Made by a program: the position numbers and the translations under genes. Below, in pieces: positions 808 to 20,779 of a DNA stretch of 39,413 nt. The first letter of the stretch is position 1. Each line of letters begins with the position of its first letter. The stretch lies in NCBI GenBank assembly GCA_003215055.1, contig QCKW01000009.1, positions 1 through 39,413 on the forward strand. The letters run 5' to 3'. This DNA comes from Pelagibacteraceae bacterium AG-410-N23 (GTDB taxonomy: Bacteria; Pseudomonadota; Alphaproteobacteria; Pelagibacterales; Pelagibacteraceae). Under the pieces are notes generated by a model that saw only the letters and a program-made list of their open reading frames with translations, had not been told where the DNA came from and did no database searches.

Positions 808-1875
808 ATGTCAGATCTAAAAAAAATAAAAGAAGAATTTTTATCTAAATTAAAATCTAAACTAAACCTCCTGGAAGTTAACCAGATAAAAACTGATTTA
901 TTTGGTAAAAATGGGTTAATAACTAATCAGTTTAAAAAGATTGGATCAATACCTGAGTTAGAACGAAAGAATTATGCATCAGAATTAAATCTTATCAAGG
1001 ATGAATTGATGAATTTAATAAATTTGAAAGTAATTGAAGTTGAAATTGCAGAGGTAAATCAAAAGCTACAAAAAGAAAAAATTGATGTCACATTACCAGA
1101 AAGACCAATATCAAGAGGAAAGATACATCCAGTATCTCAAACAATAGATGAAATTTCATCAATATTTTCAGAGATAGGGTTTAGTATTGAGGAAGGACCA
1201 GATGTGGAAAATGAATACAATAATTTCACAGCATTAAATACTCCTGATCATCATCCTGCGAGAGATATGCATGATACTTTTTATTTAGATAAGAATAAAC
1301 AAAAGCTATTGAGAACACATACTTCTCCAGTACAAATTAGAACTATGCTTAAAGATAAACCGCCTTTCAAAATAATTGCACCTGGAAGAACATATAGATC
1401 TGATAGTGATCAAACACATGCTCCGATGTTTCATCAAGTAGAGGGCCTACATATTGATAAAGACATTAATATGGGACATTTAAAAGGATGTCTTAATTAT
1501 TTTATAAAAGAATTTTTTGAAGTTGATAAAATTAAGATGAGATTCAGACCAAGTCATTTTCCATTCACTGAACCATCAGCAGAAGTGGACATAGGTTACA
1601 AAATTAAAGATGGTAAAATTGTTATTGGGGAGGGTGATAAGTGGCTTGAAATTTTGGGATGTGGAATGGTTCACCCTAATGTTTTAAAAAATGTGAAAGT
1701 TGATTCAGATAAATATCAAGGTTATGCGTTTGGGATTGGTATAGACAGGTTAGCGATGTTAAAATATGGAATTAATGATCTTAGAGCTTTTTTTGAATGT
1801 GATTATAGATGGTTAAATCATTTTGGATTTGATCCTTTGGATGTGCCAACAAATTATAGAGGTTTAAGTAGATGA
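808..1875 (+). CDS. pheS: Phenylalanyl-tRNA synthetase alpha subunit
   Basis: The 355-residue protein is the catalytic alpha subunit of the (alpha-beta)2 PheRS, which charges tRNA-Phe. An N-terminal coiled-coil-like helical region (about residues 1-90) is followed by the class II core. Visible motifs include the block with [13 protein letters not shown], motif 2 [21 protein letters not shown], and motif 3 [11 protein letters not shown] near the C-terminus. The length is normal for bacterial PheS. The stop codon overlaps the pheT start in an ATGA junction (1872-1875), so the subunits are translationally coupled. A tRNA-Phe(GAA) gene is also present at 37441. Confidence 0.97.
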
Positions 1876-4281
1876 AGATCACGTTTGATTGGCTCAAAGA
1901 TCACTTGAAAACTAACTTAAAAGAAAAAAATCTTTTGGAGCAACTTACTAATATTGGGCTGGAAGTAGAAAGTGTAGAAAATTTATCAGGTGACAAAGAG
2001 TTATTTAAAATAGCTAAAATTATTAAAACTGAAAAACATCCTAATGCTGATCGACTTAAAATCTGTGATGTTAATGTTGGAGAAAAAGAACTTAAAAAAG
2101 TGGTTTGTGGTGCTTTAAATGCAAAAGAAGGATTAATTACAATATATGCACCTCCTGGTGCAATAATTCCTAAAACTAAAACAAAGTTAGTAGTGGCAAA
2201 AATCAGAGGAGTCACTTCTTATGGAATGCTTTGTTCTGGATCTGAATTAAATTTGACCGATGAGAGTGCTGGGATCATTGAATTATCAAATTCTAAGTAT
2301 GAAAAAAACATTGGTAAAAATTATTTCACAAAATCGAAAACGAAACTTATTGATTTATCCATCACTCCTAATAGACCAGATTGTCTTGGTTTTAGGGGTA
2401 TAGCAAGAGATCTTGCTGCATCTGGTTTTGGTAAATTAAAAGATATTAAAGAGAAAAAAATTAAATCAAAAATAAAACAATCTTTAAAAGTAAAAATTAC
2501 AAAAGAAAAAAATCAAGGATGTAGTGCTTTTGGAAGCTGTTTAATTACTAATGTAAAAAATACTGAAAGCCCCAAATGGCTTAAAGATAAATTGATCTCT
2601 ATAGGTCAAAAACCAATTTCTGCAATTGTTGATATTACAAATTATATAATGCTTGATATCAATCGACCATTACATGCATATGATGCTGATAAGATTGAAA
2701 AAGGCATAATTGTTAGAAATTCCAAACATGGAGAAGTTTTTACAGCATTAGACAATAAAACTTATAAATTAGAAAATGGCATGTGCGTAATTAGTGATAA
2801 TAAAGGTGTTTTAGGATTAGGAGGAATTATTGGTGGAACAAGATCAGGAACAGAATTTGATACAAAAAATATCTTATTGGAGTCAGCTTATTTCGAGCCA
2901 AGCTCAATAAGAAAAACTGCAAAAAAATTAAATCTTGATACAGATGCTAAATTTAGATTTGAAAGAGGTATTGATCCTCTGTCTATCGAAAATGGTTTGT
3001 GTAAAGCTGCTTTATTAATAAAAGAAATATGTGGTGGTGAAATAAGCAAGATAGATTTACAAAAAAATGAAAATTTTAAAAATAAAACTATCAAGTTTGA
3101 TCCTAAGCTTTTTGAAAAAATAACTGGTTTTAAAATTTCCAAAAAAGATATACTTAAAATCCTAGACAATCTTGGCTTTAGATTAAAAAAAGAAAAAAAT
3201 TATTTCAAGTTGATAGTTCCATCATGGAGACCTGATATTTCAAAGCCAATTGATGTGGTGGAGGAACTAGTACGAATATATGGATATAATCACATAATAA
3301 TAAATGAACCAATAAAAGAACGTCACAAACCGACACTAAATAAATCACAGAAATTATTTCATTTTTTACAAAGATCAGTTGCAACCAAAGGCTACTTAGA
3401 AGCAATCACTTGGTCATTTACTGATCCAAAATATAACGATCTTTTTAGAGAAAAGAAAAAGGAAATTAAGATTGTAAATCCTTTAAGTTCTGAAATTGGA
3501 GTTTTAAGAAATTCAATCTTTTCAAATTTAATTTTTTATACACATAAAAATTTAAACAGGGATATAAAAGATTTATCTTTATTTGAAATTGGACCAATAT
3601 TTAGCGGTTCAGCACCAGGTGAACAAGAGACAGTTATTGGTGGTTTAAGATCTGGAAAAATTTCAAGATTGTCTTGGATAGAAAATGATAGAAATGTTGA
3701 TATATTTGATGTCAAAAAAGATGTTATTCAGACATTAATCGAAGCTGGTTACGATAGGTCAAAAATTCAGATAGATGATATAACTCCCAATTATTATCAT
3801 CCTGGAAAGTCTGGAAGAATTTTTTTAAATAAAGATAAGGATAAAATTGTAGGATACTTTGGAGAGATTCATCCAAATATAATAAAAAAAATTGATATTA
3901 AAACAGAGGCATTAGTAGGGTTTGAAATATTTGTGGATAATCTCAAAAAACCTCAAAAATTATTAAAGGATCAAAAAAAAATTGTATCAAGTTTCAGATT
4001 TTCAAAAGTCAGAAAGAGATTTTGCTTTTATAATTGATAAAAACTTTAAATCTCAAGAATTAATAGATGTTATCTCAAACGTTAATTCAGAAATCATCAG
4101 CAATGTAGATATATTTGATGTGTACGAGGGTGAAAAAATTCCAAGTGACAAAAAATCTATAGCGATAAATGTGAGCATTCAATCATTAGATAAACCACTT
4201 AAAGATGAAGATTTAGAGAGAGTTAATAGATTGATAATTGACACTGTTGAAAATAAAACTGGTGCTAAAATTAGATCTTAA
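1872..4281 (+). CDS. pheT: Phenylalanyl-tRNA synthetase beta subunit, split by an apparent frameshift
   Basis: The beta subunit of PheRS carries tRNA-binding and editing domains. The first frame (1872-4037, 721 residues) has the N-terminal EMAP/tRNA-binding domain ([16 protein letters not shown], about residues 52-67), the B3/B4 editing region and the B5 domain, but ends in an out-of-family tail. The missing C-terminal FDX-ACB domain is intact in the +1 frame, from about 3982 to 4281 ([19 protein letters not shown]...). The frames meet at nine A (3973-3981). With eight A the product would be a continuous 802-residue PheT, the normal size. The gene is essential and otherwise undamaged, so a sequencing error or tolerated transcriptional slippage is more likely than true loss. 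lepA follows after eight bases. Confidence 0.9.
3973..3981 (+). repeat. A9 homopolymer at the pheT frameshift point
   Basis: Nine consecutive A follow TC at 3971-3972. Read with nine A, the pheT frame continues for 18 more codons into a non-homologous tail and a TGA. Read with eight, it joins the FDX-ACB domain exactly. This is seen directly in the sequence. Whether the extra base is real cannot be decided here. Confidence 0.85.
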
Positions 4282-4289
4282 GAATTAAA

Positions 4290-6098
4290 ATGAGCAATAT
4301 TGAAAATATCAGAAATTTTGCAATTATAGCTCATATTGATCATGGAAAATCAACGATAGCCGATAGAATTATTCATAAATGTGGAGGCTTATCCGAGAGG
4401 GAAATGAAAGAACAAGTATTAGACTCAATGGATATCGAACGAGAGAGGGGCATTACAATTAAAGCTCAGACAGTTAAATTGAATTATAAAGCAAAAAATG
4501 GAAAAAATTACATTCTTAATATTATTGATACGCCCGGTCACGTAGACTTTAGTTATGAGGTGAGCAGATCTCTTTATGCATGTGAAGGATCAATACTAAT
4601 TGTTGATAGTACTCAAGGCGTAGAAGCACAAACCTTAGCAAATGTATATCAGGCATTAGACATAAATCATGAAATTATTCCAGTGTTAAATAAAATAGAT
4701 TTAGCAGCTTCAGATCTTGAAAGAACAAAAAAACAAATTGAGGATGTTATAGGTATAGATACTGAAAATGCTGTTCCCTGCTCTGGAAAAACAGGCCAAG
4801 GTATTGAGGATATTTTAGAACAGATAATTCACAAGCTGCCAGGACCTAAAGGAGAAACAAACGAAAATTTAAAATGCTTATTAGTTGACAGTTGGTACGA
4901 TACATATCTCGGTGTAGTTATATTAGTAAGAGTGATTAATGGAAAAATTAGAAAGCATATGAAAATTAAAATGCTGTCTACCAATCAAGATTATATTGTT
5001 GAAAAAGTAGGTATATTTACTCCAAAGGCAAAAGATATCGAAGAATTAAATTCTGGAGAAATTGGTTTTATTACCACTGGTATAAAAGTCTTATCAGATA
5101 CAAAAGTAGGAGATACAATTTGTGACGCTACAAAGCCGTTAATAGAAGCTTTGCCAGGATTCAAACCTAGTAAGCCAGTCGTATTCTGCGGATTGTTTCC
5201 TGTAGATAGTTCAGAATACCAGAAATTAAAAGATGGTTTAGCTAAATTACAATTAAATGATTCTAGTTTTTCATTTGAGGCTGAGTCTTCTTCAGCATTA
5301 GGCTTGGGATTTAGATGTGGATTTTTAGGATTATTACATCTTGAAATTGTTACTGAAAGATTAGAAAGAGAGTTTGATGTAAATTTATTAACTACTACTC
5401 CAGGAGTTGTTTACAAGGTAAAATTAAATAATGGAAAGGTTGTTGATTTACAGAATCCATCAAGTCTTCCTGATCCTACTAATATTAATTCTATCGAGGA
5501 ACCGTGGATTAAGGCAACTATAATTACCCCAGATCAATATCTAGGATCTATAATTAAGTTATGCCAAGATAAAAGAGGAATTCAACTCAATCTTAGCTAT
5601 TCAGGAAATAGAGCAGTATTAATTTATGAGCTACCATTAAATGAAGTTGTTTTTGACTTTAATGATAGAATTAAGTCAATGACAAGTGGTTATGCAAGTT
5701 TTGATTATGAAATAATTGAACATAGAGAAGGAGATTTAGTTAAGCTTGGTATTTTAGTTAATAGTGAACCTGTTGATGCACTCGCAATGATGATTCACAA
5801 GGATTTTGCTCAAAAGGCAGGCAGAGATGTTTGTGAAAAATTGAAAGATCTAATACCAAGACATAATTTTATGATTCCAATCCAAGCAGCTATTGGCGGA
5901 AAAATAATAGCAAGAGAAACTATTAAGGGTTTTAAAAAAGATGTATTGACTAAAATTCATGGTGGAGGTGCATCAGATAGAAAAAGAAAATTACTTGAAA
6001 AACAAAAAAAGGGAAAAGCAAGATCTAAACAATTTGGAAAAGTGGAAATACCCCAAGAAGCATTTATTGGTGTTTTAAAAATTAATAATAAAGAATAA
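4290..6098 (+). CDS. lepA: Elongation factor 4 (ribosome back-translocase GTPase)
   Basis: The 602-residue product is a translational GTPase of the LepA/EF-4 family, which acts on stalled or mis-translocated ribosomes. The G1 motif AHIDHGKS (residues 14-21), the G3 motif DTPGH and the G4 NKID are all present. The C-terminal part with [19 protein letters not shown] is the LepA-specific domain that distinguishes it from EF-G. The length is canonical (about 600). It follows pheT by eight bases. The next gene, a glycosyltransferase, starts ten bases downstream on the same strand, so envelope genes may be read through from this translation operon. Confidence 0.97.
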
Positions 6099-6108
6099 CG
6101 ATATTAAA

Positions 6109-6915
6109 ATGAAAAATAAAATAATTGATTGTATAACATTTTTTCAAGAAAATAGACATTTCAATTTAAGATTTAATATTCTCAAAGATGTTGTTGATAA
6201 ATTTTTAGTTTGTGAGTCTATTTATGACCATCGAGGAAATAAAAAAGAAATTAATTTTAATTATGAAAAATATAAAAATAATCATCAAATTGAGCATGTA
6301 GTTTATAAAAAGAAGTTTCCTAACAATAATGATCCTTGGAGAAATCAAGCTATACAAAGAGAATTTATATTAGAAAATCTAGATACAGTAGATCAAAATG
6401 ACTACATTATGTTTTCTGATCCTGATGAAATTCCTAATCCAAAATTACTTAAAGACTTAAAACTTGAGAAAAAATTTGGTATTTTTTTTCAAAAAATATT
6501 TTCATATAAGCTTAATTTATTTAATCCCCATGAGAGCCCATGGGAAGGTACTAGAATCTGTAGAAAAAAAGATTTAAAATCAGTTGATTGGCTTAGACAA
6601 AAAGTTGTAGCAAAAAATTTAAAATATCCATTTTGGAGAATAGATAAAGAAAAAAGTATTCAAATACTCAATAATGGTGGATGGCATTTTAGTTATCTTT
6701 TGAAACCAGAAGAAATATCAAAAAAATTTAAAAGTTTAGCAGAAACTTCATGGGATAATGATAAATTTTCTAACTTAGAAACAATTAAAGAAAAAATTAA
6801 TAAAAAAATTGACCTTTTTGACAGGGGTCACATTTATCATAAAATTGAAATTGATAATGATTATCCAGATTATATTTTAAAGAATAAAGATGAACTTGAA
6901 GAATGGATAATATAA
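6109..6915 (+). CDS. Glycosyltransferase family 17-like protein
   Basis: This 268-residue soluble protein resembles GT17, the family named for beta-1,4-mannosyl-glycoprotein GlcNAc transferase (MGAT3), with bacterial members of mostly unknown acceptor. Support comes from the N-terminal IIDCITFFQENRHFNLRFN, the FLVCES strand, DPWRNQAIQREFI, and the DxD-like acidic motif MFSDPDEIPNP at about residues 100-110, followed by a GGWHFSY segment typical of the family. No signal peptide or membrane helix is seen. It is the first gene of a sugar-modification island and is followed nine bases later by a 2OG oxygenase. The likely job is cytoplasmic assembly of a surface glycan; donor and acceptor are not predictable. 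Confidence 0.72.
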   Translation: MKNKIIDCITFFQENRHFNLRFNILKDVVDKFLVCESIYDHRGNKKEINFNYEKYKNNHQIEHVVYKKKFPNNNDPWRNQAIQREFILENLDTVDQNDYIMFSDPDEIPNPKLLKDLKLEKKFGIFFQKIFSYKLNLFNPHESPWEGTRICRKKDLKSVDWLRQKVVAKNLKYPFWRIDKEKSIQILNNGGWHFSYLLKPEEISKKFKSLAETSWDNDKFSNLETIKEKINKKIDLFDRGHIYHKIEIDNDYPDYILKNKDELEEWII

Positions 6916-20280: not shown

Positions 20281-20779
20281 AAATATTTAAAATTTCATTA
20301 ACTATTTCTATTTTTGAGAGATTATCACAATTTATCTTATATAATGATTTTGAGTAAAAGTTTGAACGTTTTTTTATCATATTTATTAATTCATTTTTCG
20401 TTAAATTTTTGACAAGCGGCCTTTTGGAGTTTTTTCTTAATCTTTTTAATAATTGTTCACTACCTAAATTAAGCCAAAAAGACAAATGATTGCTTAAAAT
20501 TTCTTTTCTTATTTTGCTGTTGAGAAAACCACCCCCGCCTAATGCAACAACTATATTTTTTTTTTTTAAAATTTGTAATGTAACTTTTTCCTCAATTTCT
20601 CTAAAAAATTTTTCACCATAATCATTAAATATTTCAGTAATTTTCATTCCCGATTTTTTTTCAATACAATTATCGATATCAAAAAAATCTAATTTAAGTC
20701 TCTTTGATATAAGTTTACCTATAGTGGTCTTACCAGTACCCATCATGCCCAAAAAAACAATATTTCCCTCAGATTTCAT
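20255..20779 (-). CDS. aroK: Shikimate kinase
   Basis: The 174-residue product phosphorylates shikimate at O3. The P-loop GMMGTGKTT lies at residues 11-19, followed by FFDIDNCIEKKSGMKITEIF with the substrate-binding Asp, VVALGGGGFLN, and the lid region KRPLVKN. The ATG at 20779 is preferred to one 21 codons upstream, because family similarity begins just before NIVFLG and the longer form would overlap the divergent small membrane ORF. The coding strand holds a 12-base A run, in frame, encoding KKKN before IVVALGGGG. Confidence 0.95.
   Translation of the reverse strand: MKSEGNIVFLGMMGTGKTTIGKLISKRLKLDFFDIDNCIEKKSGMKITEIFNDYGEKFFREIEEKVTLQILKKKNIVVALGGGGFLNSKIRKEILSNHLSFWLNLGSEQLLKRLRKNSKRPLVKNLTKNELINMIKKRSNFYSKSLYKINCDNLSKIEIVNEILNIYETNKIDS
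20556..20567 (-). repeat. A12 homopolymer inside aroK
   Basis: Twelve consecutive T on the plus strand are twelve A in the aroK coding strand. The reading frame is intact across it in this sequence. Tracts of this length are prone to replication, transcription and sequencing slippage. Confidence 0.85.

Follow-up and report, generated by a model that had tools for sequence, protein, structure and literature searches.

A one-base frame break in pheT of a Pelagibacteraceae draft genome, most likely a technical indel

The pheT gene in the window, the whole stretch of 39,413 nucleotides analysed here (contig C9 of a draft genome of 923,408 bases in 36 contigs, 79.8% complete), is interrupted by a one-base frame break. 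Its product, the beta chain of phenylalanyl-tRNA synthetase, is required in SAR11-type marine bacteria to charge a tRNA with its amino acid. The break is real as sequence, and the deposited pheT in all likelihood carries a technical one-base indel with, most likely, no biology beneath it; an artefact is the most likely origin because the same draft has the same kind of extra base in several other important genes. The surplus base, at or next to an A run, would have arisen in whole-genome amplification, sequencing or assembly, and in the living organism pheT is very probably uninterrupted, with about 802 codons.

Reading frames of pheT and the site of the break

The upstream frame of pheT, identified from the list of open reading frames and by homology (positions 1872–4037, forward strand), encodes 721 amino acids, and its stop codon (4035–4037) precedes the FDX-ACB domain. 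The downstream frame, open in the +1 phase of the same strand from 3982 to 4281, contains this domain (PF03147; 3994–4275; E-value 2.1e-26 in a profile search), which bears out the preliminary description on both points and is the sole match to PF03147 within the 923-kb draft genome. Residues 1–719 of PheT align with full-length pheT at 57–79% identity in genomes of the same genus and at up to 86% among named loci. Length-wise homology and a C-terminal FDX-ACB domain are both present, but they are not contained in one continuous reading frame. Intact genes adjoin pheT on the same strand, where pheS (808–1875; PF01409, E-value 4.9e-101, and PF02912) overlaps its start and lepA (4290–6098; PF06421, LepA_C, E-value 4.5e-43, with GTPase domains) lies downstream.

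A run of nine A residues (3973–3981, forward strand), read directly from the sequence and compared with the nearest relatives, is positioned at the break. When one base is dropped, the two halves of pheT fuse into 802 residues, the commonest open-frame length of the gene among relatives. The preliminary description had proposed one A too many in this run; the restoration of 802 residues agrees with that proposal, while the placement of the base is less certain. The site in the nearest relatives reads, for example, AAA AAG GTT TAT CAA GTG, and in the alignment the window is one base longer than the sister group between the A run and TAT. To judge from the letters themselves, the extra base may belong to the A9 run or to the TTG directly after it, the second placement fitting the alignment about equally well; on general grounds the extra base is likely an A. 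A +1 shift, here as in the other breaks of the draft, could also reflect two missing bases, one extra base being the simpler reading. Six of the seven events kept by the frame model in the window were read from their flanks as gene junctions or gene starts, and the pheT break is the sole within-gene frameshift accepted there.

pheT and its FDX-ACB domain in relatives

pheT was matched in 87 of 101 genus genomes, namely the genome of the window and 86 others, and by our own count from the table it forms a single open frame of 786–815 codons in 79 of these 86. The remaining seven comprise two genomes with frameshifts elsewhere in the gene (G023 and G024) and five partial matches, where those of G072 and G081 lie at contig ends, those of G004 and G044 are each spread over two contigs, and the fifth is that of G013. 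A break at the window's site occurs in none of the 86 (for the seven without a full frame, the site was judged from open-frame lengths, and in G023 and G024 from the mapped shifts).

A scan of named genomes covered the best 80 of 271 relatives, picked by similarity to the query and not as a random sample, and in all 79 readable loci among them pheT is one frame of at least 760 codons, the nearest being that of AG-447-E22 (86% identity). No examined relative is broken at the site, which is the outcome of the comparison of pheT across related genomes that the preliminary description had suggested. The titles of these 80 relatives name Pelagibacteraceae or Pelagibacterales, and all 80 carry AG-, AH- or SAG-MED names, with 24 of them also saying MAG. 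We take AG- and AH- to be single-cell genome codes, and the draft genome, like its nearest named relatives, probably comes from a single amplified cell, the MAG titles counting against this.

In a wider domain search, FDX-ACB is present in 323 of 399 genomes. Among the matches listed, 12 open frames of pheT are shorter than 760 codons, of which seven lie at contig ends, four contain frameshifts (G024, G156, G107 and G134) and one contains an internal stop (G381). The last of these (stretch L037) shows homology across 802 residues in a single frame, with its internal stop at about residue 441. A search of viral contigs for DNA of the same species returned none.

Identity to the closest intact relative is 85% in the FDX-ACB part and 87% upstream of it, and the differences within FDX-ACB amount to 0.063, 0.032 and 0.326 at the first, second and third codon positions, respectively. 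The window keeps 39 of the 42 FDX-ACB columns that are invariant in 29 relatives. The comparison with the nearest intact relatives therefore gives no sign of decay downstream of the break, an absence equally compatible with a technical error, a bypass and a very recent mutation. Relaxed selection on FDX-ACB was also considered, as the domain first looked fast-evolving (3 of 121 upstream windows were as divergent, and it ranked 1 of 30); it was ruled out because in five chosen near intact relatives, which rank 2–6 of 80, FDX-ACB likewise stands further apart from the wider genus.

One-base breaks elsewhere in the draft and in other genomes

The draft genome was sampled as the window plus 24 stretches of 20 kb (about 519 kb), which were screened with a frame model and by homology, the latter covering 224 kb of the 519 kb. 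Homology was relied on because many events of the frame model were ordinary gene junctions, and genuine shifts with a stop close by were lost under a strict filter. Five further conserved genes were accepted, each shifted by +1 at a homopolymer or next to one. murG (L050:4757; A8 or T6) matches TIGR01133 at positions 6–93 and 80–344 in different frames; among 16 other matched genomes, 15 hold murG in one stop-free frame, and the G008 frame (354) contains one stop. aceA (L056:1028; A7) matches PF00463 at 12–468 and 462–526 in two frames. Stretch L106 contains two breaks, one in lgt (near 5845; T6), where PF01790 is matched at 1–168 and 166–238, and one in a methyltransferase gene (near 6339; T9), where PF02636 is matched at 1–48 and 47–243. 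An ABC permease gene (L052:1468; T8) lies in two frames with PF00528 in the second piece, and its homologue in G012 is one frame of 641 codons. Homology clusters in L102, L109 and L112 were set aside from their flanks as short shadow, tRNA-side or antisense frames, and model events in L103, L104 (three) and L108 were set aside as gene junctions by flank reading.

Coding runs of at least seven bases in the sample number 1418 for A and 378 for T. Two of the accepted breaks lie at A runs (pheT and aceA), three at T runs, including a T6, and one is ambiguous (murG), so that no preference for sense-strand A runs is seen. As the breaks occur at both A and T runs, a mechanism at the RNA level that prefers A is disfavoured, and an error in DNA handling is favoured. 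The six breaks in 519 kb correspond to a rate of at least 1.2 per 100 kb. For a single-cell workflow, 3.0 indels per 100 kbp were reported on benchmark cultures (PMC5712423, PMC8443664); in the portions of these papers available here, the indel rate is given without a homopolymer or insertion bias.

Shifts in pheT were also read in five other genomes, eight in total, of which seven are +1 and one is −1, all at A runs as read. G023 (L043) has three shifts in the one gene, the third being −1, and G107 (L038) has two; the others lie in G024 (L032), G156 (L033) and G134 (L039). In G107, 103 kb screened by homology gave no frameshift besides those in pheT. A biased biological process producing only insertions at sense-strand A runs was entertained and dropped, as pheT is itself rich in A and poor in T runs and the draft genome has T-run cases; the same idea is contradicted by the opposite direction of the breaks in polA of G026 and in G012.

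Among the 101 genomes searched, 86 matched polA and 2 of them have it broken, with one base extra in G001 and one base missing in G026, while alaS (88 matched) and glyS (80 matched) show no clear break (in this comparison contig ends were checked for some of the partial rows, and the one-stop glyS rows of G079, G047, G063 and G054 were left out). In G024, a +1 shift close to a T run divides a cytochrome c assembly gene (L083 near 7036, reverse strand), with PF01578 matched at 36–92 and 111–212.

Of the single-contig genome G012 (1,343,202 bases), 380 kb were sampled, and 220 kb of these were run through the frame model. In waaA the frame is moved by −1 at an A10 run, in tmk it is moved by −1 with PF02223 matched at 1–74 and 73–182, and in an ADP-ribosylglycohydrolase-like gene it is moved by −1 at an A9 run with one supporting homologue; nadK and a PMT-like gene show −1 shifts judged by eye alone. 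The breaks lie in L065 near 4740 (reverse strand), L070 near 643 (forward), L071 near 6542 (reverse), L072 near 133 (forward) and L073 near 3026 (reverse). Five −1 shifts in G012 against six +1 shifts here suggest that direction belongs to the project and not to the organism, where the statement for G012 rests on the five breaks read, the remaining frame-model events having been partly examined. Where looked at, the G012 breaks are at or near A runs, and −1 is the direction that transcriptional insertion could correct. G012 would suit a test of slippage better, error still being the likelier explanation there. Control screens gave no cluster in G045 (33 kb) or G058 (37 kb), and two clusters in a third control, G003 (69 kb), were rejected, as they lie in short shadow frames.

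A technical indel and its alternatives

The breaks resemble the residual indels of amplified single-cell or draft assemblies in being single-base, in lying at or beside homopolymers, in their rate of at least 1.2 per 100 kb and in affecting essential and dispensable genes alike, and the one in pheT is absent from relatives. The other single-base homopolymer shifts in the same assembly, in five further genes, together with the intact relatives, support the homopolymer error that had been put forward as one of two explanations in the preliminary description, and we infer a technical origin for the breaks in the draft genome as a whole. Against a technical indel, all six accepted shifts are insertions, for which the cited work offers no account, and the shifts of pheT in five other genomes may point to something peculiar to this gene.

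A real and recent loss-of-function mutation in the sampled cell or strain, with no bypass, is very improbable. Runs of A mutate readily, and the undecayed downstream part of pheT is as expected of a recent event; however, well-studied bacteria cannot do without PheT, MurG or Lgt, and a lineage with pheT, murG and lgt all broken would not persist. Nor does the draft offer a substitute, as a single pheT match was found in it, although a second copy may lie in the part that is missing at 79.8% completeness. Less probable still is a real frameshift that is bypassed, where RNA polymerase would slip on the A9 run and bring some transcripts back into phase, yielding enough full-length PheT. For insect endosymbionts, frameshifts at long A runs are reported to be corrected by slippage in 12–50% of transcripts, and up to six additional bases can arise at a run of nine A or T, so that a gain of two would be possible (PMC5009743); dnaX, dnaG and pth of B. 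vafer are candidates for such correction (PMC3017870). The present case shares with Buchnera and Blochmannia a one-base shift at or beside a nine-A run, an important gene, intact halves and an abundance of long A tracts in coding regions (A9 alone occurs 193 times in those of the sample), and its downstream FDX-ACB part is free of decay, which is equally expected of an artefact. Rescue of pheT would, however, need one A to be lost or two to be gained, and in the transcription of Buchnera 151 of 157 insertions but 16 of 57 deletions fall in homopolymers, where insertions are the predominant change (PMC5574713). The reported endosymbiont frameshifts are partly conserved between species (PMC3017870), whereas the shift in pheT is kept in 0 of the 79 readable loci among the best 80 relatives and in 0 of the 86 genus genomes. 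Slippage would also have to bypass the breaks in murG, lgt, aceA and others, some of which lie at T6 or A7. The unfavourable direction, the lack of the break in all examined relatives and the occurrence of companion breaks at T or short runs separate this case from Buchnera and Blochmannia, and they leave transcriptional slippage, the second explanation of the preliminary description, unsupported. With a programmed ribosomal frameshift in mind, too, a shift at this site is seen in none of the relatives examined. The relatives here, titled Pelagibacteraceae or Pelagibacterales, also belong to groups that are free-living and marine, unlike those endosymbionts.

More doubtful again is the broader proposition that a free-living SAR11-type bacterium tolerates several real one-base homopolymer insertions in essential genes, as in pheT, murG and lgt, through slipping of the RNA polymerase or the ribosome on A and T runs that is frequent enough to bring the frame back. 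A literature search for transcriptional slippage in SAR11 found no report; if true, slippage rescue in SAR11 would extend a phenomenon of insect endosymbionts to abundant ocean bacteria. The least credible reading is a truly split PheT, consisting of the chain of 721 amino acids and a separate FDX-ACB chain started from the TTG at 3982. This TTG opens the downstream frame, and a Shine-Dalgarno-like AAGGA (3966–3970) ends 11 bases upstream; however, the AAGGA falls within a Lys-Asp codon pair common in relatives, and no examined relative is split at this site.

A technical indel being the preferred reading, the case counsels caution, as essential genes in drafts of this AT-rich genus contain frameshifts at homopolymers, the direction of which may differ by genome. 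A broken essential gene in such a draft should not be taken for slippage or for gene loss without the reads.

Long homopolymers are frequent in the window, which contains 26 runs of A or T of at least nine bases. The A12 tract of aroK noted in the preliminary description is real (20556–20567, T12 on the forward strand), and its view that long tracts as such are tolerated agrees with the relatives, which hold in-frame runs of up to A9, A10 and A11 at the position of the pheT break. In the sample of the draft genome, coding runs of A7–A10 exceed the expectation from synonymous shuffling, while coding runs of at least 11 A (36 against 47.7 expected) and of at least 10 T (9 against 18.7) fall below it.
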